From: Bradyrhizobium erythrophlei
Lineage (GTDB): Bacteria > Pseudomonadota > Alphaproteobacteria > Rhizobiales > Xanthobacteraceae
Direction of reading: 5' to 3'
Assembly (NCBI GenBank): GCA_900129675.1
Contig: FSRD01000001.1
Coordinates: forward strand, 423,501 to 487,500
DNA: 64,000 nt
Within the stretch, counting starts at the first letter, position 1; the number at the start of each line of letters is the position of its first letter. The notes below the pieces were generated by a model. The model saw only the letters and a program-made list of their open reading frames with translations. It was not told the DNA's origin and searched no databases. The position numbers were made by a program, and so were the translations under genes. Of the stretch, positions 9,582-63,161 are shown piece after piece.

Positions 9582-9838
9582 GATTTTGATTCCGCCATTC
9601 GGAGGTTCGATCCCTCCCGCCCCAGCCAGGCATTCATGCGTTCGGCCGGGCTCCCCCGAGAAACGCGAGAACGGCCCGGAAATCCGGGCTTTTCGCGCAT
9701 TCGATTTCGTCTTCAGACTTCCGGTTCGCCCACCTTGAGGTGGAAATCGCCGAAAGTCTCCGGCCTTGTCCGCGAATATTCCCGTTTTGCGGAGACTATC
9801 GGCGGAGACTGGTTCGATCACGACTGCCGCCCGAGCCA
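9582..9838 (+). repeat. tRNA-3'-end-linked repeat, copy A
   Basis: Bases 9582-9628 equal the 3' half of a tRNA-Gln(UUG): anticodon loop ATTTTGATT, T arm GGAGGTTCGATCCCTCC and acceptor end CGCCCCAGCCA. About 200 bases follow with the words AAAGTCTCCGGCC, CGCGAATATTCCCGTTTTGC and GGAGACTATCGGCGGAGACT, ending in GGTTCGATC again. The same ~200 bases occur in reverse at 32772-33011 (nearly identical) and, more diverged, at 29465-29720 and 36643-36880. It resembles the scar of an element integrated at a tRNA 3' end. No complete tRNA is present. The stretch 9211-10138 holds this copy, the 9367-9472 repeat and a partial copy at 9957, but no gene. Confidence 0.75.
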
Positions 9839-18057: not shown

Positions 18058-18130
18058 AAATCGACTGGTCCAGCAGCGCAACCGACCAGTCCAACTGAAT
18101 CCTAACCAAAAATATTTGAAATTTTTAGCG

Positions 18131-18514
18131 TCAACCGATGTTCGTCAATTGATGCGTCGGATATCCGAGGATGGTGCTTGTTCGGCCTGTGTCGCGATCA
18201 ACGTAGATGAATGCCGGTCCGTCGATGCGATAGTGGCCCTTCCAACCGATCGCGAAGGTGGTATCAGTCTCGTCGATGTGGATCGGTTCGGGGTCTCCAT
18301 CCCGGGCCAGTCGTGCAGCGAGTTGGTCGGAAGGGTCAAGCAGCCACGCATCGCCAGATTTGCTCGAGAACAGGATGAGCTGACCGATGCTGATCACGCG
18401 TCCGGTGTGGTCGGCTGCCCGACGCTGAATGTAACGGACCTCATCGGTGAGACGAAAGCTCTTGCCGTCCACCATGCGCTTGCCCGGTCCACGCTTGATG
18501 CCGGTGTTAGCCAT
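18131..18514 (-). CDS. Small conserved protein of the 2283-bp element
   Basis: 127 residues from the ATG at 18514 (a start at 18529 is also in frame). Composition and hydrophobic pattern look like a real folded domain: DGKSFRLTDEVRYIQRRAAD, then ISIGQLILFSSKSGDAWLLD and FAIGWKGHYRIDGPAFIYVD. No family recognised. Its start codon overlaps that of the divergent large gene within CCATGG, so both cannot be translated from one transcript and their promoters must lie inside each other's coding sequence. The stop lies 29 bases from the left end of the element. An identical copy is at 55787-56170. Confidence 0.6.
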   Translation of the reverse strand: MANTGIKRGPGKRMVDGKSFRLTDEVRYIQRRAADHTGRVISIGQLILFSSKSGDAWLLDPSDQLAARLARDGDPEPIHIDETDTTFAIGWKGHYRIDGPAFIYVDRDTGRTSTILGYPTHQLTNIG

Positions 18515-20132
18515 GGAACTTTTCACCAAATTGTTCGGCGACTTGCTGCTGTTCGTTTACCATTGCTTCGACCGCATTGTCATTCACGGCTACCTCAGTG
18601 GGCTGTCACGGCCCGAACAGGTAGTGCACTTTTTCCGAAAGGTCGTTGGCATTCCTGTGGTCAGCAAAGAGATCTTGAGCCAGCGAACGGCCGACTACCA
18701 GAACTGGGTCGAGGCCTTCGCCCGCAATCATAATATCCCGATCGAGTGGGCCGAAAAGGGGGTGCGCAAGGAAGACTATGTGCTCCCCTGGCTACGCCGA
18801 ATGACAAAGAGGAACGCCTATGGCGTTTATTTCATCTTCAAGAGTATGGAACAGGGCCCGACCTTCCGGGTCAGCGTGCCGAAGTATCCCACCAAGGATC
18901 CAAACCACCGCATCCTCGCCCGCCAGCGCAGCCGCTTCACACACGACTACTTCTATATCCGCGATGAAGTTCTCGGCCCCATGGTGATGCGTGTCGCAAC
19001 CTTCTTCCCCTTCCAAACGACATATTACCTCAACGGCCACAACTTCATCGAGCAGGAGCTCAATCGTGAGCAGGTCGGCTTCCGCAAGAATGACAATGCC
19101 TTCCTGGCGATTGACGACATCGCTGCACTCCAGGCCGCTGCCGACAGACTGAGCCCCGACATCATTCGCAAACGGCTCGACTATTGGACCCTGATCCTCG
19201 GGCCCAAGTTCTCCGTCAAGGAGCGTAAGCGGGTAAAGCTGTCGCGCTTCTATGCCATCTCGCAAATCGAATATTGCCGCAACTTCATCTTCAAACGGAA
19301 CTTTCCCATCCACAAACTGTTCGAACGCGGCTGCGAGCTCGGACTGTGGCGGCTGACAGCCCACAAGATTGCCGAGATCTTCGGCGCCCGCCTACACCGC
19401 AGGCTGCCCGGCAAGCTCGCCACCGTCATCGATCAGATCGAGCATGGCCATCACGTCTTCCGCGCCTACTTCAAGCACGCCTTCCTGAAGCAGTACGAAA
19501 AGTTCGCAACGTTCTTGCGCAATGAGCTCTGCTCCAACAACCTCAACGACTTCGGCCTCAAAAAGGGATTGGACAATCTCGACGCCGTCCGCCAGACCTT
19601 CCAAGTCATCACCAGCCGCTTCGCTGGCTTCCAGGCCCAGTGGCTCAACGTTCACGTCGACTTCCCGCTTTTGCAGCGGATTGCGCTGCCGATCACCATC
19701 GGTTCGGTCCGCTATCCCGGCATCAAAATCCACGACAGACGAGTCATTCGGCTTCTCGAGGTTCTCTTGCATGGCGCCACTCACGTCGGCGGCTGGACCG
19801 CGAAGGAAATCCACCAATCCGTCCTCACGACCTTCAGTCTCTCCGAACCATCTTATGGTCTGAACCAACTGCGCTACGATCTGCGCAAGCTCAAAGGTCA
19901 CGGACTGCTTGAACGCGACGGATCCCGCTACGCTTACCGCCTCACCTCAAAGGGTGTTCAAGTCGCCTTGCTATTTCTGTTCTTCCACAAACGGCTGTGC
20001 GGACCACTTGCCAACAGCCGCTTCCACCGCCGTCCGGACCCTCAAAATCGCCCAGACAGCCGACTCGAAGCCGCCTACCACCGCGCCGACAAGGCCATCC
20101 AGAATATCGTCGATTTGCTCGCTACCGCGTGA
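18513..20132 (+). CDS. Large protein of the 2283-bp element, possible new transposase type
   Basis: 539 residues from the ATG at 18513; a frame from 18447 would run across the divergent gene. The N-terminal half is rich in aromatic and basic residues (FVYHCFDRIVIHGYLSGLSR, HDYFYIRDEVLGPMVMRV, FFPFQTTYYLNGHNF). The C-terminal part (about 440-500, LRYDLRKLKGHGLLERDG) resembles a winged helix. No DDE triad, HUH motif or recombinase signature is evident. Being the main gene of a duplicated unit, it is the best candidate for the mobility enzyme (inference). Its last ~48 codons lie in a 195-bp unit that is repeated directly after the stop. Identical copy at 56169-57788. Confidence 0.75.
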   Translation: MELFTKLFGDLLLFVYHCFDRIVIHGYLSGLSRPEQVVHFFRKVVGIPVVSKEILSQRTADYQNWVEAFARNHNIPIEWAEKGVRKEDYVLPWLRRMTKRNAYGVYFIFKSMEQGPTFRVSVPKYPTKDPNHRILARQRSRFTHDYFYIRDEVLGPMVMRVATFFPFQTTYYLNGHNFIEQELNREQVGFRKNDNAFLAIDDIAALQAAADRLSPDIIRKRLDYWTLILGPKFSVKERKRVKLSRFYAISQIEYCRNFIFKRNFPIHKLFERGCELGLWRLTAHKIAEIFGARLHRRLPGKLATVIDQIEHGHHVFRAYFKHAFLKQYEKFATFLRNELCSNNLNDFGLKKGLDNLDAVRQTFQVITSRFAGFQAQWLNVHVDFPLLQRIALPITIGSVRYPGIKIHDRRVIRLLEVLLHGATHVGGWTAKEIHQSVLTTFSLSEPSYGLNQLRYDLRKLKGHGLLERDGSRYAYRLTSKGVQVALLFLFFHKRLCGPLANSRFHRRPDPQNRPDSRLEAAYHRADKAIQNIVDLLATA

Positions 20133-20377
20133 CGGAGCCACTCCATTGTTGGAGTCGTCTTATTTAACATCCCGCAGGCTAAACAAACGGCTGTGCGGAC
20201 CACTTGCCAACAGCCGCTTCCACCGCCGTCCGGACCCTCAAAATCGCCCAGACAGCCGACTCGAAGCCGCCTACCACCGCGCCGACAAGGCCATCCAGAA
20301 TATCGTCGATTTGCTCGCTACCGCGTGACGGAGCCACTTCATTGTTGGAGTCGTCTTATTTAACATCCCGCAGGCTA
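19988..20377. repeat. 195-bp tandem duplication at the right end of the element
   Basis: Units 19988-20182 and 20183-20377 are almost identical, each starting ACAAACGGCTGTGCGG and ending CCCGCAGGCTA. Unit 1 holds the last codons and stop of the large gene; unit 2 repeats them without a start. The same arrangement is in copy 2 (57644-57838 and 57839-58033). Confidence 0.9.
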
Positions 20378-20428
20378 GAATCTAGCATCTCCCAGCCGGG
20401 TTTGCGGTTCCTAGTGGCGCCGCCAAAT

Positions 20429-29464: not shown

Positions 29465-29720
29465 GGTCGGGCGGCAGTGGTGCGCGAACTCGTCTCCGCG
29501 AATATTCTCCCCAAACGGGAATATTTGCGGAAATGGCCGGAGACTATTTGCGATTTCGGTCTCGGTTTTGCGGACTTGCGTCTCTGGAGACAAAACGAAT
29601 GCGCGGAAAGCCGGGATTTCCGGCCCATTGTCGCGTCTTTTGGGAAGCTTGGCCGAAAGCGGCACTGGGTGGCTGGGTTGGAAGGTATCGAACCTCGATA
29701 TGGCGATTTGGAACTCGGTT
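29465..29720 (-). repeat. tRNA-3'-end-linked repeat, copy B
   Basis: Diverged copy of the 9582-9838 repeat in reverse: CGGGCGGCAGT, GTCTCCGCGAATATTC, AACGGGAATATTTGCGG, GGCCGGAGACT, ending in TGGCTGGGTTGG and a T-arm-like TATCGAACCTCGATA. It lies 220 bases after the HNH-NACHT gene and 640 before the CBASS-like operon. The stretch 29243-30353 holds this repeat and a tRNA-Ser-like scrap, but no gene. Confidence 0.7.
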
Positions 29721-32738: not shown

Positions 32739-32771
32739 TCTGGCTTCCGGCCCCTCTCTCGGACGCCGCCC

Positions 32772-33011
32772 TCGGGCGGCAGTCGTGATCGAACCAGTCT
32801 CCGCCGATAGTCTCCGCAAAACGGGAATATTCGCGGACAAGGCCGGAGACTTTCGGCGATTTCCACCTCAAGGTGGGCGAACCGGAAGTCTGAAGACGAA
32901 ATCGAATGCGCGAAAAGCGGGGATTTGCGGCCCATTCTCCCGCTTCTCGGGAAGCCTGGCCGAGCGCCGGACTGGCTGGCTGACCATCCAGGGATCGAAC
33001 TCCCACATTCC
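32772..33011 (-). repeat. tRNA-3'-end-linked repeat, copy C
   Basis: Nearly the exact reverse of copy A over about 165 bases (GATCGAACCAGTCTCCGCCG, AACGGGAATATTCGCGG, GGCCGGAGACTTTCGGCG, CACCTCAAGGTGGGCGAACC). It ends in TGGCTGACCATCCAGGGATC and GAACTCCC, a tRNA T-arm and CCA-like end. It starts 34 bases after the CD-NTase stop and has the same orientation as copy B, so B and C flank the CBASS-like operon as direct repeats. Confidence 0.75.
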
Positions 33012-36261: not shown

Positions 36262-36642
36262 GCCGAGATTCTCCAGTTAGGCCTCGGTCAGGCTGAGATT
36301 GCCGGCGCTGAAAGCGTTTATCAAGCCCGACCCATCGCCACTATGTTCGGACGATAGTGGCTCTGACAGCATACCGGCTCATATAAAGCGAAATGCTGGA
36401 GTCCAAAGCGGCCTTCCACCAAGATATACATGGGCTTGGAAAACCGCAGGACTTGAATTTGCGACGTGATGAACATCGTTGCTCCGAGAGCAATCAAATC
36501 TGGCTCAGGGGTCTTCCCACCCGGCAGCCGGTGCGCTCTTTGCAGCCTCCTGCACACCCTATAGTGTGTTCGTAATCCCGATCGGTGGGGCTGGTTTCTG
36601 CGGCGTCACCTGCCGCCCCTACCAAGCATTGCAGATCGAAAA
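36262..36642. other. Intergenic region, nothing recognised
   Basis: About 380 bases upstream of the channel gene. No gene or clear site is visible; it presumably contains the channel promoter. Confidence 0.4.
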
Positions 36643-36880
36643 TCTGTCTCCGCCAAAAGTCTCTCGAAAACGGGAATATCTGGGAAATTGGCCGGAGACT
36701 TTTGGGAGATTCTCTCTAAAGTTGCCGCTTTTCGGAGCTTGGAGACTGCCACCGAAAGCGCTGAAAGCCCATAATTTGCAGGCTTTTCGCGCCAAACGCG
36801 CAAGCTATCTTAGGTTGATAGACTGCCTGGCTGCGGCGGGAGGGATCGAACCTCCGAATGGCGGAATCAAAATCCGCCGC
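36643..36880 (-). repeat. tRNA-3'-end-linked repeat, copy D
   Basis: On the minus strand 36880-36828 reads as the 3' half of tRNA-Gln(UUG): GCGGATTTTGATTCCGCC, GGAGGTTCGATCCCTCC, CGCCGCAGCCA. The following ~185 bases carry AGTCTCCGGCC, AGATATTCCCGTTTTCG and AGTCTCC words, like copy A. The 5' half of the tRNA cannot be formed from the bases beyond 36880 (no strand pairing with CGCCGCA), so it is a fragment. It lies just before the first gene of the satellite-like element. Confidence 0.75.
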
Positions 36881-54660: not shown

Positions 54661-54663
54661 CTC

Positions 54664-54809
54664 CTTCTCCCCTTGTGGGAGAAGGAGGCGCGGACGCAGT
54701 CCGCGCCGGATGAGGGGTTCTCTCCGCGAACACTGAATTTGCGGAGACAGACCCCTCACCCGTCGCCTCACTTCGTGAGGCGCCACCCTCTCCCACAAGG
54801 GGAGAGGGA
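54664..54809. repeat. Dispersed palindromic repeat (CTTCTCCCCTTGTGGGAGAAG family), copy 2
   Basis: Begins CCTTCTCCCCTTGTGGGAGA and ends CCCTCTCCCACAAGGGGAGA, with GGATGAGGGGTTCTCT and CAGACCCCTCACCC inside; same family as 44773-44904. Confidence 0.85.
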
Positions 54810-55678: not shown

Positions 55679-55786
55679 ACGAGGCCGGGCGGTGGAGCAA
55701 AAAGCTATGTCTGGTCGGGCGACCCTCCCACAGTGCACTCAATCGGTCGCCGTAATTCTAACCAAAAATATTTGAAATTTTTAGCG

Positions 55787-56170
55787 TCAACCGATGTTCG
55801 TCAATTGATGCGTCGGATATCCGAGGATGGTGCTTGTTCGGCCTGTGTCGCGATCAACGTAGATGAATGCCGGTCCGTCGATGCGATAGTGGCCCTTCCA
55901 ACCGATCGCGAAGGTGGTATCAGTCTCGTCGATGTGGATCGGTTCGGGGTCTCCATCCCGGGCCAGTCGTGCAGCGAGTTGGTCGGAAGGGTCAAGCAGC
56001 CACGCATCGCCAGATTTGCTCGAGAACAGGATGAGCTGACCGATGCTGATCACGCGTCCGGTGTGGTCGGCTGCCCGACGCTGAATGTAACGGACCTCAT
56101 CGGTGAGACGAAAGCTCTTGCCGTCCACCATGCGCTTGCCCGGTCCACGCTTGATGCCGGTGTTAGCCAT
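55787..56170 (-). CDS. Small conserved protein of the 2283-bp element, copy 2
   Basis: 127 residues, identical to the product of 18131-18514, again with its start codon overlapping that of the divergent large gene in CCATGG. Confidence 0.6.
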   Translation of the reverse strand: MANTGIKRGPGKRMVDGKSFRLTDEVRYIQRRAADHTGRVISIGQLILFSSKSGDAWLLDPSDQLAARLARDGDPEPIHIDETDTTFAIGWKGHYRIDGPAFIYVDRDTGRTSTILGYPTHQLTNIG

Positions 56171-57788
56171 GGAACTTTTCACCAAATTGTTCGGCGACTT
56201 GCTGCTGTTCGTTTACCATTGCTTCGACCGCATTGTCATTCACGGCTACCTCAGTGGGCTGTCACGGCCCGAACAGGTAGTGCACTTTTTCCGAAAGGTC
56301 GTTGGCATTCCTGTGGTCAGCAAAGAGATCTTGAGCCAGCGAACGGCCGACTACCAGAACTGGGTCGAGGCCTTCGCCCGCAATCATAATATCCCGATCG
56401 AGTGGGCCGAAAAGGGGGTGCGCAAGGAAGACTATGTGCTCCCCTGGCTACGCCGAATGACAAAGAGGAACGCCTATGGCGTTTATTTCATCTTCAAGAG
56501 TATGGAACAGGGCCCGACCTTCCGGGTCAGCGTGCCGAAGTATCCCACCAAGGATCCAAACCACCGCATCCTCGCCCGCCAGCGCAGCCGCTTCACACAC
56601 GACTACTTCTATATCCGCGATGAAGTTCTCGGCCCCATGGTGATGCGTGTCGCAACCTTCTTCCCCTTCCAAACGACATATTACCTCAACGGCCACAACT
56701 TCATCGAGCAGGAGCTCAATCGTGAGCAGGTCGGCTTCCGCAAGAATGACAATGCCTTCCTGGCGATTGACGACATCGCTGCACTCCAGGCCGCTGCCGA
56801 CAGACTGAGCCCCGACATCATTCGCAAACGGCTCGACTATTGGACCCTGATCCTCGGGCCCAAGTTCTCCGTCAAGGAGCGCAAGCGGGTAAAGCTGTCG
56901 CGCTTCTATGCCATCTCGCAAATCGAATATTGCCGCAACTTCATCTTCAAACGGAACTTTCCCATCCACAAACTGTTCGAACGCGGCTGCGAGCTCGGAC
57001 TGTGGCGGCTGACAGCCCACAAGATTGCCGAGATCTTCGGCGCCCGCCTACACCGCAGGCTGCCCGGCAAGCTCGCCACCGTCATCGATCAGATCGAGCA
57101 TGGCCATCACGTCTTCCGCGCCTACTTCAAGCACGCCTTCCTGAAGCAGTACGAAAAGTTCGCAACGTTCTTGCGCAATGAGCTCTGCTCCAACAACCTC
57201 AACGACTTCGGCCTCAAAAAGGGATTGGACAATCTCGACGCCGTCCGCCAGACCTTCCAAGTCATCACCAGCCGCTTCGCTGGCTTCCAGGCCCAGTGGC
57301 TCAACGTTCACGTCGACTTCCCGCTTTTGCAGCGGATTGCGCTGCCGATCACCATCGGTTCGGTCCGCTATCCCGGCATCAAAATCCACGACAGACGAGT
57401 CATTCGGCTTCTCGAGGTTCTCTTGCATGGCGCCACTCACGTCGGCGGCTGGACCGCGAAGGAAATCCACCAATCCGTCCTCACGACCTTCAGTCTCTCC
57501 GAACCATCTTATGGTCTGAACCAACTGCGCTACGATCTGCGCAAGCTCAAAGGTCACGGACTGCTTGAACGCGACGGATCCCGCTACGCTTACCGCCTCA
57601 CCTCAAAGGGTGTTCAAGTCGCCTTGCTATTTCTGTTCTTCCACAAACGGCTGTGCGGACCACTTGCCAACAGCCGCTTCCACCGCCGTCCGGACCCTCA
57701 AAATCGCCCAGACAGCCGACTCGAAGCCGCCTACCACCGCGCCGACAAGGCCATCCAGAATATCGTCGATTTGCTCGCTACCGCGTGA
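56169..57788 (+). CDS. Large protein of the 2283-bp element, copy 2
   Basis: 539 residues, identical in sequence to the product of 18513-20132; the one base difference inside the gene (56882 C for T) is silent. See the first copy for domains. Its last codons are again repeated after the stop. Confidence 0.75.
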   Translation: MELFTKLFGDLLLFVYHCFDRIVIHGYLSGLSRPEQVVHFFRKVVGIPVVSKEILSQRTADYQNWVEAFARNHNIPIEWAEKGVRKEDYVLPWLRRMTKRNAYGVYFIFKSMEQGPTFRVSVPKYPTKDPNHRILARQRSRFTHDYFYIRDEVLGPMVMRVATFFPFQTTYYLNGHNFIEQELNREQVGFRKNDNAFLAIDDIAALQAAADRLSPDIIRKRLDYWTLILGPKFSVKERKRVKLSRFYAISQIEYCRNFIFKRNFPIHKLFERGCELGLWRLTAHKIAEIFGARLHRRLPGKLATVIDQIEHGHHVFRAYFKHAFLKQYEKFATFLRNELCSNNLNDFGLKKGLDNLDAVRQTFQVITSRFAGFQAQWLNVHVDFPLLQRIALPITIGSVRYPGIKIHDRRVIRLLEVLLHGATHVGGWTAKEIHQSVLTTFSLSEPSYGLNQLRYDLRKLKGHGLLERDGSRYAYRLTSKGVQVALLFLFFHKRLCGPLANSRFHRRPDPQNRPDSRLEAAYHRADKAIQNIVDLLATA

Positions 57789-58033
57789 CGGAGCCACTTC
57801 ATTGTTGGAGTCGTCTTATTTAACATCCCGCAGGCTAAACAAACGGCTGTGCGGACCACTTGCCAACAGCCGCTTCCACCGCCGTCCGGACCCTCAAAAT
57901 CGCCCAGACAGCCGACTCGAAGCCGCCTACCACCGCGCCGACAAGGCCATCCAGAATATCGTCGATTTGCTCGCTACCGCGTGACGGAGCCACTTCATTG
58001 TTGGAGTCGTCTTATTTAACATCCCGCAGGCTA
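57644..58033. repeat. 195-bp tandem duplication, copy 2
   Basis: Units 57644-57838 and 57839-58033, matching 19988-20182 and 20183-20377. Confidence 0.9.
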
Positions 58034-58040
58034 GAATCTA

Positions 58041-60597: not shown

Positions 60598-61128
60598 ATG
60601 CGTCATTCGACTTTTGCCGCCGTCGCGACAAGGAATTCGCTGCCCGGTCGCAAAATCCTGTGCGTCCTGACCGCCCTTGCCTTGATGGCAGCCGCCTCAC
60701 CGGCTGCCGCCAGCGAGTGGCGTTACGGTTGCAGAGGCGTGCTCCCGAGCGGGGACGCGCCGATCATCATCTTCAACCGCGCCTCGCTCGTCATGCTGCC
60801 GAAGGCCTGGGTCAAGGGATCGCTGTTTGCCTCGGTGTACGACGAGCTTCTGCGCTCGAGCTTTCGAGCGACCAACAACAATTCGGGGCTGGTTCCGACC
60901 ATGGTGTTTACGCGCGATGACCATCCCGACGAAAAGCTGACGCTGACCGAGAAGTCGTCAAAGACGATTTCGGACGTTCAACGTCCGGCCGGGCGCCAGC
61001 CGCGCTCCGAGCAGACAACCATTTACACGAAGGTCTATCGATGGGTCAGCGACGGCATCTATGCGGGTCCATACGATATCAAAATGGACTGCATCAATTA
61101 TGAGCTCTCGGCGCCGTTACACCGATAG
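60598..61128 (+). CDS. Exported hypothetical protein
   Basis: 176 residues with a long-n-region signal peptide cleaved after PAAAS (about residue 39). The mature protein is beta-rich (EWRYGCRGVLPSGDAPIIIF, then YAGPYDIKMDCINYELSAPL) with two cysteines. Its last ~40 codons and the following bases are duplicated at 62651-62888. No family recognised. Confidence 0.65.
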   Translation: MRHSTFAAVATRNSLPGRKILCVLTALALMAAASPAAASEWRYGCRGVLPSGDAPIIIFNRASLVMLPKAWVKGSLFASVYDELLRSSFRATNNNSGLVPTMVFTRDDHPDEKLTLTEKSSKTISDVQRPAGRQPRSEQTTIYTKVYRWVSDGIYAGPYDIKMDCINYELSAPLHR

Positions 61129-61239
61129 GCCTCTGTGCGGGTCGTCGCTAATTGCGGTGACACTGTCACCGTAATTCCCCCGGCAAACGGAAATAGTCGG
61201 TCCAGCCCCCTACTCGATCACCTCGTCGGCGCGCAGAAC
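61008..61239 (+). repeat. Direct repeat flanking the acyltransferase gene, left copy
   Basis: Matches 62651-62888 at roughly 90 percent or better: ACACGAAGGTCTATCGATGG, GACGGCATCTATGCGGGTCC, CAAAATGGACTGCATCAATT, GACACTGTCACCGTAATTCC, ACTCGATCACCTCGTCGGC. It includes the end of the upstream gene. Confidence 0.88.
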
Positions 61240-61420
61240 GAGTATTCGGGGCGAACCAGTGCTGGTTCTGCCGGAGAAACGGGCGATCTCCATAGAGCTG
61301 GCCCTGGTTGCAGGCACAATGCGTTGAGCGCACAGGTAGCAGCAACTAAAACCGGTGGACGCTCATCTCGAACTACTTTAGCTTGCGGCCGCACATGTAG
61401 TTGTTTGATTCGGGCGAGTA

Positions 61421-62521: not shown

Positions 62522-62650
62522 CCGTTGCCCCCTGCAATGCGAATAGCTTCATTCCCTCGAGCGGCCGGTCGTCGCCTCAATTTCTGAATGACGCTGCGAC
62601 CGAGGCTGCGCCCAGGGGCCTCGATGACGTTGAGCGACAGCCATGATATC

Positions 62651-62888
62651 GGAGCAAACGACCACGTACACGAAGGTCTATCGATGGATCAGCGACGGCA
62701 TCTATGCGGGTCCATACGATATCAAAATGGACTGCATCAATTATGAGCTCTCGGCGCCGTTACACCGATAGGCCTCTTTGCGGGTCGTCGCATCGAATTG
62801 CGGTGACACTGTCACCGTAATTCCCCCGGCAAACGGAAATAGTCGGTCCAGCCTCTCCCTACTCGATCACCTCGTCGGCACGCAGAAC
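62651..62888 (+). repeat. Direct repeat flanking the acyltransferase gene, right copy
   Basis: Repeats 61008-61239, including the last ~40 codons and stop of the 60598 gene without its start, so it is a gene fragment. 62522-63161 contains no intact gene. Confidence 0.88.
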
Positions 62889-63161
62889 CAGAGCGGACGG
62901 GATGATGACACCGAGCGTCCTGGCAGATGCACAAATGAGCATTGCTGACCGCTATCGGACTAATGACGGTTGACCGTGGTCTGGATTTGGCTCAGCCGGA
63001 CGATTTGCAACAGTCGAGGAATGGCCCAAAGGGCAATATCGCACTGACGGCGCGTTGTGGTGTCCTTTCCCCGGTTGATCTTGCTCGTGCTGGCATCCCG
63101 GATGCATCCAATGACCATTGATCCTCACCTCGCCTGTGGGCCGGAACGAACCGATCATCGC

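Follow-up and report, generated by a model that had tools for sequence, protein, structure and literature searches.

An insertion sequence of Bradyrhizobium erythrophlei with a putative TBP-fold, Rep_trans-like tyrosine transposase

How does a DNA segment move if it encodes no recognisable transposase? The question is raised by a 2283-bp element that occurs twice, 37.7 kb apart, in a 64,000-nucleotide stretch of the Bradyrhizobium erythrophlei genome (assembly GCA_900129675.1, contig FSRD01000001.1, positions 423,501 to 487,500, forward strand; hereafter the window). Each copy carries two genes, encoding a 539-aa protein (P1) and a 127-aa protein (P2). The element is probably an insertion sequence (IS) that moves via single-stranded DNA, with P1 acting as a tyrosine endonuclease of TATA-binding protein (TBP) fold that resembles the Rep_trans family and has a C-terminal winged helix. 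The evidence comes from the ends and insertion sites of the copies, from a hairpin at a fixed distance from the left end, and from the predicted structure and conserved residues of P1.

Copies of the element

Copy A (18102–20384) and copy B (55758–58040) are 2283 bp each. Self-BLAST of the window matches 18098–20384 to 55754–58040 over 2287 bp with 3 mismatches and 0 gaps; one of these mismatches, at 18101, is outside the element, which therefore differs between the copies at two bases. A first-pass annotation, made from the sequence of the window, had described a near-identical pair with two differing bases, unrelated flanks and only two genes, and all of this was borne out. P1 and the divergent P2 are encoded at 18513–20132 (+) and 18131–18514 (−) in copy A, and at 56169–57788 (+) and 55787–56170 (−; copy A coordinates plus 37656) in copy B. 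BLAST similarity of the pair is confined to the element and ends at its boundary, which excludes a single segmental duplication that included the flanks.

There are eight copies of the element on three contigs of the host genome (11.7 Mb in four contigs), as well as a 111-bp match to the right end. The flanks of the six copies outside the window, judged by eye, are also unrelated. Five of the eight copies are 2281–2283 bp long, while the other three are 2070–2087 bp long and have a single right end. The five are longer because their last ~195 bp are tandemly repeated; in copy A the two units lie at 19987–20181 and 20183–20377 (+) and differ by one mismatch in the self-BLAST. The common right-end duplication suggests that these five copies are one recently expanded lineage. 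One copy (L007, minus strand, contig C4) is broken, since its P1 is split over three overlapping frames. The 111-bp match (L017, G000:C4:4592824–4592934) is a solitary right-end remnant that ends in GAATCTA, possibly a one-ended or deleted product.

Ends and insertion target

Alignment of the host copies gave a left end of CTA[A/G][C/T]CAAAAATATTTG and a right end of AGGCTAGAATCTA. The left-end pattern occurs eight times in the host genome (7 forward, 1 reverse), and a reversed control pattern 0 times. At the left junction of copy A (18098–18105, +), the target AATC is followed by a CTA (18102–18104) that recurs at the right end, GAATCTA (20378–20384, +), where cleavage would follow the CTA. 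Copy B has target AATT and then CTA at its left junction (55754–55760, +), and GAATCTA at its right end (58034–58040, +). The ends are not inverted repeats of each other (CTA[A/G][C/T]C on the left versus GAATCTA on the right). The right end of the host copies does contain CTAGCC on the reverse strand, which resembles the left end, but this is missing from most right ends in Acidobacteria, and conserved terminal inverted repeats were rejected on that ground. The first-pass annotation had seen no clear inverted ends or target duplications; definable ends and a target rule do exist.

Unoccupied sites were found in relatives of the same genus for two of the eight host copies (L004 and L006), and the boundary in each is one CTA. 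At L004, 6 of 28 aligned relatives retain a single CTA at exactly this point (e.g. L140 and L141), 15 have an altered triplet, and 7 are unaligned across the junction; no row has two CTAs. At L006 the sequence is CCTAG in two of six relatives. For copy B, no empty site was found in 70 genomes of the genus, with homology ending ~85 bp before the insertion. Insertion turns one CTA into two, without further duplication. Read from the sequence, the second CTA may be a target duplication, or both CTAs may be cleavage sites.

The bases next to the CTA are also restricted. The left-end pattern matched 24 of 41 loci, leaving 23 readable left flanks because one locus (L041) has no flank; near-matches by eye at L037 and L059 were excluded from the counts. 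Position −4 is A in 22 of these flanks and G in 1, and position −3 is A in 19 and G in 4. The sole exception at −4 is L040, where the right-end motif AGAATCTA precedes the left end. All eight host copies have ARNN upstream of the CTA, compared with 868 of 7361 CTA sites (11.8%) in samples of the host genome. Among 19 right flanks, which leave out the right-end motif matches in L040, L056, L063 and L068, the first base is a purine in 16 (10 A, 6 G) versus 27% of background CTA sites, a background taken from the host genome only while the flanks also include foreign loci. Positions +2 to +6 of these flanks follow no strong rule. Together, the −4/−3 preference and the purine at +1 give a target of approximately ARNN-CTA-R. 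The mapping of all genomic copies that the first-pass annotation had proposed for this purpose yielded eight copies with boundaries at CTA and a target rule.

At one locus (L045, 3550–5432), two family members stand in tandem, and the second begins with a presumed left end that adjoins the right end of its neighbour. The arrangement looks as though right ends could act as targets. Two tandem members are found at L087 as well, where the right end of the first was not located.

A left-end hairpin with constant spacing

In copy A, the left end contains a hairpin at 18105–18118 (+), read from the sequence as a 2-nt spacer (AC) after the CTA, a CAAA stem, an AATA loop and a TTTG stem. Five subfamilies (types I–V, the element of the window being type I) have a perfect left-end stem at exactly 2 nt after a CTA; the stem sequences differ and the spacing is constant. 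The stems are CAAA/TTTG (4 bp) in type I, CAAGGGC/GCCCTTG (7 bp) in type II, GAGGC/GCCTC (5 bp) in type III, GGGGC/GCCCC (5 bp) in type IV, and 11 bp in the two loci of type V (CTTTTTCGCAG/CTGCGAAAAAG and CCGCCGCCGGG/CCCGGCGGCGG). In a background of 7344 CTA sites of the host genome, a stem at spacer 2 was found 253 times at a length of at least 4 bp, 74 times at 5 bp or more and 3 times at 8 bp or more. The left boundary is independently fixed in type I, by empty sites and many copies, and in type III, by two copies that diverge right before the CTA. The two copies of types II and IV have a few bases in common before the CTA as well, and the type V boundary comes from the hairpin.

Type II is a second family member in the host genome (L026 and L027, at G000:C4:3873815–3875377 and 7275264–7276826), with two copies of 1781 bp that are 99.7% identical to each other; this 32% identical member has no room for P2. 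Type III is found in Caballeronia/Paraburkholderia (L088 and L161) and type IV in Rhodococcus (L157 and L158), and type V at the two tandem loci (L045b and L087b). A scan for CTA-hairpins with a stem of at least 5 and a spacer of 1–4 was tried on 10 members and found one in 7, with a second candidate at spacer 1 in L087b.

Right ends agree, with AGAATCTA in type I versus the GGAATCTA with which type III right ends finish. Type IV right ends finish in TCTA in L157 and L158 and in CTTA in L160. A right-end hairpin was better than in shuffled sequences in type III (matched by 2 and 3 of 500 shuffles) and in one of 12 type I ends (L058, 11 of 500).

Sequence and predicted structure of P1

P1 matched no transposase or recombinase profile in Pfam, NCBIfam (release 20.0) or PHROGs, in agreement with the first-pass annotation. 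NCBIfam gave no match at all to P1; its profile matches, in Pfam and PHROGs, are weak and mainly to winged-helix families (residues 448–483), with one weak PHROGs family of unknown function, and its PADLOC matches also fall mainly on the winged helix. There was no match to a DDE profile in Pfam or NCBIfam, nor to the profiles of HUH Y1 (IS200/IS605), HUH Y2 (IS91/ISCR), serine recombinases, tyrosine recombinases or DEDD/Tnp_20 (IS110/IS1111) enzymes; no H-x-H occurs among the columns conserved in 21 members. Neither P1 nor P2 has a helicase profile (Pfam, NCBIfam). The Rep_trans profile (PF02486) did not match P1, 12 aligned members or 5 further members. The five distant members have no transposase or nuclease profile (Pfam, NCBIfam), and one of them (L159) passes the Pfam cut-off for HTH_5. 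Sequence searches of the PDB with P1, the 12-member profile and the P2 profile found nothing, as did searches of phages (tblastn) and viral contigs with family members and searches of viral contigs and phages with Rep_trans comparators.

All 12 members of a first alignment share D20, E253, Y328, R336 and E338. Across 21 members, Y328, R336, E338, Q251 and E253 are conserved in 100%, K330 and K326 in 95%, and D20 in 90% of 20 sequences; in alignments of the family, copies with stops were dropped or only their uninterrupted pieces used. In copy A, the corresponding codons (all +) are at 18570–18572 for D20, within HCFDR; at 19269–19271 for E253, within QxE; at 19494–19502 for Y328-E-K330; and at 19518–19526 for R336-N-E338.

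A model of full-length P1 (pLDDT 73) has a clear C-terminal winged helix (residues ~405–492) of MarR/PadR-like type, which the first-pass annotation had suggested as a possibility. That annotation had also called the fold unknown. P1 does have some likely kin, as its catalytic domain (residues ~1–385; pLDDT 82, pTM 0.84) is predicted to have the Rep_trans fold and most of its active-site residues. In a VIA-align comparison, the domain model matched TBPs with Z up to 8.6, the Rep_trans proteins RepSTK1 (4cij) with Z 7.6 over 188 residues at 4.6 Å, and RepD (4cwe) with Z 6.2 over 179 residues at 5.3 Å. By title, the rows from Z 8.6 to 6.2 are TBPs or chains of TBP complexes, 4cij, 4cwe and one vaccinia RNA polymerase chain (Z 6.3); apart from that chain, other kinds of protein appear from Z 6.1 downward. 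The P1 catalytic domain is thus predicted to have a TBP/Rep_trans-like fold.

As described for Rep_trans proteins, the fold is built from two modules of five strands each, curved as in TBP; Y191, the nucleophile, lies on strand 10 between R189 and K193, the metal ligands are D46, D142 and E214, and the motif residues sit on strands 6, 9, 10 and 11 (PMC4797284). The motifs are given as N' (D), I (RxD), II (T/SxY/ExG), III (YxKxxE) and IV (W/LxRxE) (PMC5714925). In the P1 model, a first strand (12–26, with D20, motif N'-like) is followed by further strands and helices, by a strand that opens the second half (248–260, with E253, motif I-like), by helices, and then by three strands at 314–320, 323–330 (with Y328) and 334–341 (with E338). 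The YxK (Y328-x-K330, motif III-like) and RxE (L335-R336-x-E338, motif IV-like) motifs of P1 were recognised from the pattern of residues and the order of the strands. The putative metal ligands D20, E253 and E338 are on the expected strands of the model, with a motif I that differs (QxE vs RxD). By strand order, then, D20, E253, YxK and RxE would occupy places corresponding to the Rep_trans active site in these descriptions, and we infer that P1 is a tyrosine transposase of Rep_trans-like type, carrying a winged helix towards its C-terminus, with Y328 as the proposed nucleophile.

P2 and the arrangement of the genes

P1 and P2 are encoded by divergent genes whose ATG codons share a single CATG (18512–18515), which leaves no room for the usual ribosome site upstream of P1 outside P2. 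In L036 and L038, gaps of about 40–75 bp separate the two genes instead. P2 is present in 8 of 33 loci (L036–L039, L048, L049, L053 and L059), and in eight others (L040, L041, L043, L046, L047, L055, L058 and L060) the left end is directly upstream of P1. The P2 gene is optional, and its product a putative accessory protein.

Distribution of relatives

A scan of genome contigs found 68 matching stretches, 33 of which encode a relative of P1 (46–82% identity in the best segment). By title, 24 of these 33 loci are from Acidobacteria, and the rest are from Proteobacteria, a Fischerbacteria bin (two loci), a Thaumarchaeota bin (one locus) and others, with the proviso that metagenome bins may contain misassigned contigs. 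Many copies are broken. Matches were found in 2 of 60 genomes of relatives and 12 of 349 of the phylum, the host genome being counted in each. Among plasmid records, 12 were matched by P1 and 24 by the Caballeronia member; where annotated, the plasmid members are mostly hypothetical proteins and once an ArsR family protein. Members of the family occur in Acidobacteria, Proteobacteria, Actinobacteria and others, labelled as hypothetical proteins or ArsR regulators, and the element is found mainly in soil bacteria.

The window contains other repeats. A dispersed family of up to ~240 bp is found at 9593–9834, 29467–29705, 32771–33000 and 36634–36705, with ~75–90% identity and some copies inverted. 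There is also a 243-bp direct repeat (61006–61242 and 62649–62891, 93%) and an imperfect palindrome of ~150 bp at 54662–54809.

Proposed mechanism and alternatives

The non-inverted ends, the CTA at both boundaries, the target read mainly on its 5' side and the left hairpin locked in its spacing fit cleavage of one strand 3' of CTA by a tyrosine nuclease of the Rep_trans kind, in the manner of IS200/IS605. In the proposed mechanism, P1 would bind one strand of the element, at the left-end hairpin and at the right end. Y328, assisted by a metal held by D20, E253 and E338, would cut that strand 3' of CTA, at ARNNCTA^ on the left and GAATCTA^ on the right, and would remain attached to the 5' phosphate. 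The ends would be joined as a single-stranded circle, or the strand transferred directly; insertion would follow 3' of another ARNNCTA, probably where the template is single-stranded for a time, and replication would then turn the inserted strand double-stranded. The winged helix probably helps in end binding or autoregulation, and P2 would be an optional accessory here too. We infer these steps, from cleavage and covalent linkage to the formation of a circle and the part played by replication.

A number of observations weigh against this mechanism or against the assignment of P1. With respect to the ends, the target is not strictly one-sided, and the purine at +1 would be needless for a purely 5'-reading, IS200/IS605-like enzyme. 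The scan for a CTA-hairpin (stem of at least 5) found none upstream of 3 of the 10 members (L087a, L159 and L069). For types II, IV and V, it was the adjoining hairpin that decided which CTA was taken as the cleaved one. Both type II copies have CTAA ahead of the CTA, and their right end lacks a CTA. The right-end hairpin of the host's own type is no better than shuffled sequences (335 and 358 of 500). The orientation of the host copies relative to GC skew, taken from 40 stretches of 20 kb, has no clear bias (5 of 8, by eye, with the copy at C4:3931091 adjoining a sample of near-zero skew).

With respect to the protein, TBPs score as well as or better than Rep_trans proteins against the domain model, and a Z below 8, by the tool's own warning, may mean merely a common arrangement. 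Foldseek against the PDB ranks 4cij first for the full model (E 0.013), a weak E-value, and the best 4cij chain for the domain model has E 0.40 at rank 23. There is no recognisable motif II, motif I is QxE, and the spacing from Y to E is 10, versus 17 in RepSTK1. An hhalign comparison of full-length P1 with 12 Rep_trans-type proteins (of 7 scanned, 4 pass the Pfam cut-off) was not significant (probability 0.9%). Of the two comparisons of P1 recommended in the first-pass annotation, the structural one gave matches (TBPs, 4cij and 4cwe) and the profile one did not. A segment scan with Rep_trans motifs III–IV in 23 windows gave its best values in three windows with Y328 (P 0.007, 0.007 and 0.022; others at least 0.22), though these are uncorrected, and the aligned Rep_trans YxK falls on the neighbouring strand, out of register.

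Among other explanations, a rolling-circle replicative transposon of the IS91/Helitron kind, or an integrated minimal rolling-circle replicon, is possible if doubtful. P1 would then start leading-strand synthesis, as Rep_trans relatives are described as acting in rolling-circle replication (PMC4797284, PMC5714925). The ends are not inverted, which suits this explanation, and the tandem right-end duplication in five of the eight copies could stem from misread termination. Neither P1 nor P2 has a helicase profile, though, and the flanks of the host copies, by eye, have no common captured DNA. The left hairpin also lies 2 nt from the presumed cut, as in IS200/IS605 elements.

Double-strand site-specific recombination, in which a circle with a CTA core recombines with a genomic CTA in the manner of IS110 or a recombinase, is unlikely. 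A 3-bp core of which the empty site has one copy, and which flanks the element on both sides after insertion, fits this idea, and so do the abutments of right and left ends in L040 and L045. The purine after the target CTA (16 of 19), along with the purine after the left-end CTA of type I, indicates some reading on the 3' side, so that a core-exchange mechanism retains a little plausibility. On the 3' side, however, there is no strong preference beyond +1, the spacing of the left hairpin is constant, P1 is predicted to fold like TBP, and no serine, tyrosine-recombinase or DEDD profile matches. An IS110-like element with a guide RNA was rejected, since the short form has little non-coding DNA (~26 nt at the left and ~56 nt at the right) in which to encode one unless it overlaps the genes.

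It is very improbable that P1 is a passively carried winged-helix regulator mobilised by a transposase encoded elsewhere in the genome. This would account for the clear C-terminal winged helix and for the one member that carries an ArsR family regulator annotation and scores above the Pfam HTH_5 cut-off, but some elements with both ends intact lack P2 and not P1, the same ends go with P1 relatives in different phyla, and the N-terminal 385 residues contain conserved nuclease-like residues. Finally, a DDE transposon whose RNase H-like transposase (triad D20/E253/E338) escaped recognition, and whose target duplication is strictly the 3-bp CTA, was rejected as scarcely credible – the CTA at both ends could be a target duplication and three acidic residues are conserved, but no terminal inverted repeats are conserved across copies, the predicted fold is not RNase H, and the asymmetric target rule and the hairpin are left unexplained.

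Relation to known systems

As a probable IS that moves via single-stranded DNA, the element resembles the IS200/IS605 elements (TnpA Y1, HUH; IS608, ISDra2), which also have non-inverted ends and insert 3' of a short fixed target. Both have a subterminal hairpin near the left cleavage site, subterminal structures being described for IS200/IS605 (PMC6006769). Measured against the IS200/IS605 pattern of hairpins at both ends and a 5'-flanking target without duplication, the likeness is partial: the left hairpin, the ARNNCTA target and the single CTA in empty sites agree with it, but a right hairpin was found only in type III and L058, and a purine is preferred at +1. The 3' purine preference and a right-end hairpin that is not general are this element's own. 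The enzymes differ: that of IS200/IS605 is a small HUH protein, whereas P1 has 539 aa, lacks an HUH motif, is predicted to fold like TBP and carries a winged helix at its C-terminal side. IS91/ISCR elements and Helitrons, as described in PMC5714925, similarly have a tyrosine nuclease related to initiators, no inverted repeats and no target duplication beyond the core, but their enzymes are HUH proteins with a different target, and no helicase profile is found here.

The Rep_trans (PF02486)/MOBT proteins (RepD, RepSTK1, NicK, Orf20) are described with the TBP-like fold that is predicted here and with a layout of D, D or E, YxK and RxE that the order of residues in P1 resembles, and some have a DNA-binding helix-turn-helix domain, comparable to the winged helix of P1. 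They have no detectable sequence similarity to P1, and the roles given for them in the available parts of PMC13107129 and PMC5714925 concern conjugation and the replication of plasmids and phages rather than insertion sequences. The archaeal Rep-Arvir proteins (DUF7845) are described as a TBP-like catalytic domain followed by a winged helix, with a kinship to Rep_trans that is visible in structure only, as for P1 (PMC13107129). The viral Foldseek matches of the P1 model include A0A2N9QVX7 and A0A345MNV4, the two models by which Rep-Arvir was recognised as Rep_trans-like in that description. Rep-Arvir differs in its role in archaeal virus and plasmid replication and in its motif (KHYYM); its likeness to P1 is drawn from descriptions (PMC13107129).

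A limited search of freely available articles, in the portions accessible, found no IS with a Rep_trans or TBP-fold transposase. The suggestion of the first-pass annotation that this may be an undescribed class of mobile element gains support from the discrete insertions at CTA, from flanks that lie outside the duplication, and from the lack of a transposase profile match. On balance, these elements appear to represent a new transposase class – TBP-fold, Rep_trans-like tyrosine endonucleases that move ISs with hairpin ends into an ARNN-CTA-R target by way of a single-stranded intermediate. The novelty would lie in the enzyme class, while the proposed mechanism is of a known kind.

Implications

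The known enzyme classes of transposons are DDE, HUH, serine, tyrosine, DEDD and a few others. If the reading of P1 is true, a TBP-fold, initiator-type transposase would be one more. Replication-initiator nucleases would then have been co-opted for transposition once more, independently of HUH Y1 and Y2, and transposons would have arisen from the second, unrelated family of rolling-circle nucleases as well. The small size of the element, its short target rule and its defined left-end hairpin make the idea directly testable. It would also explain a family of unannotated genes that are often multi-copy or broken.

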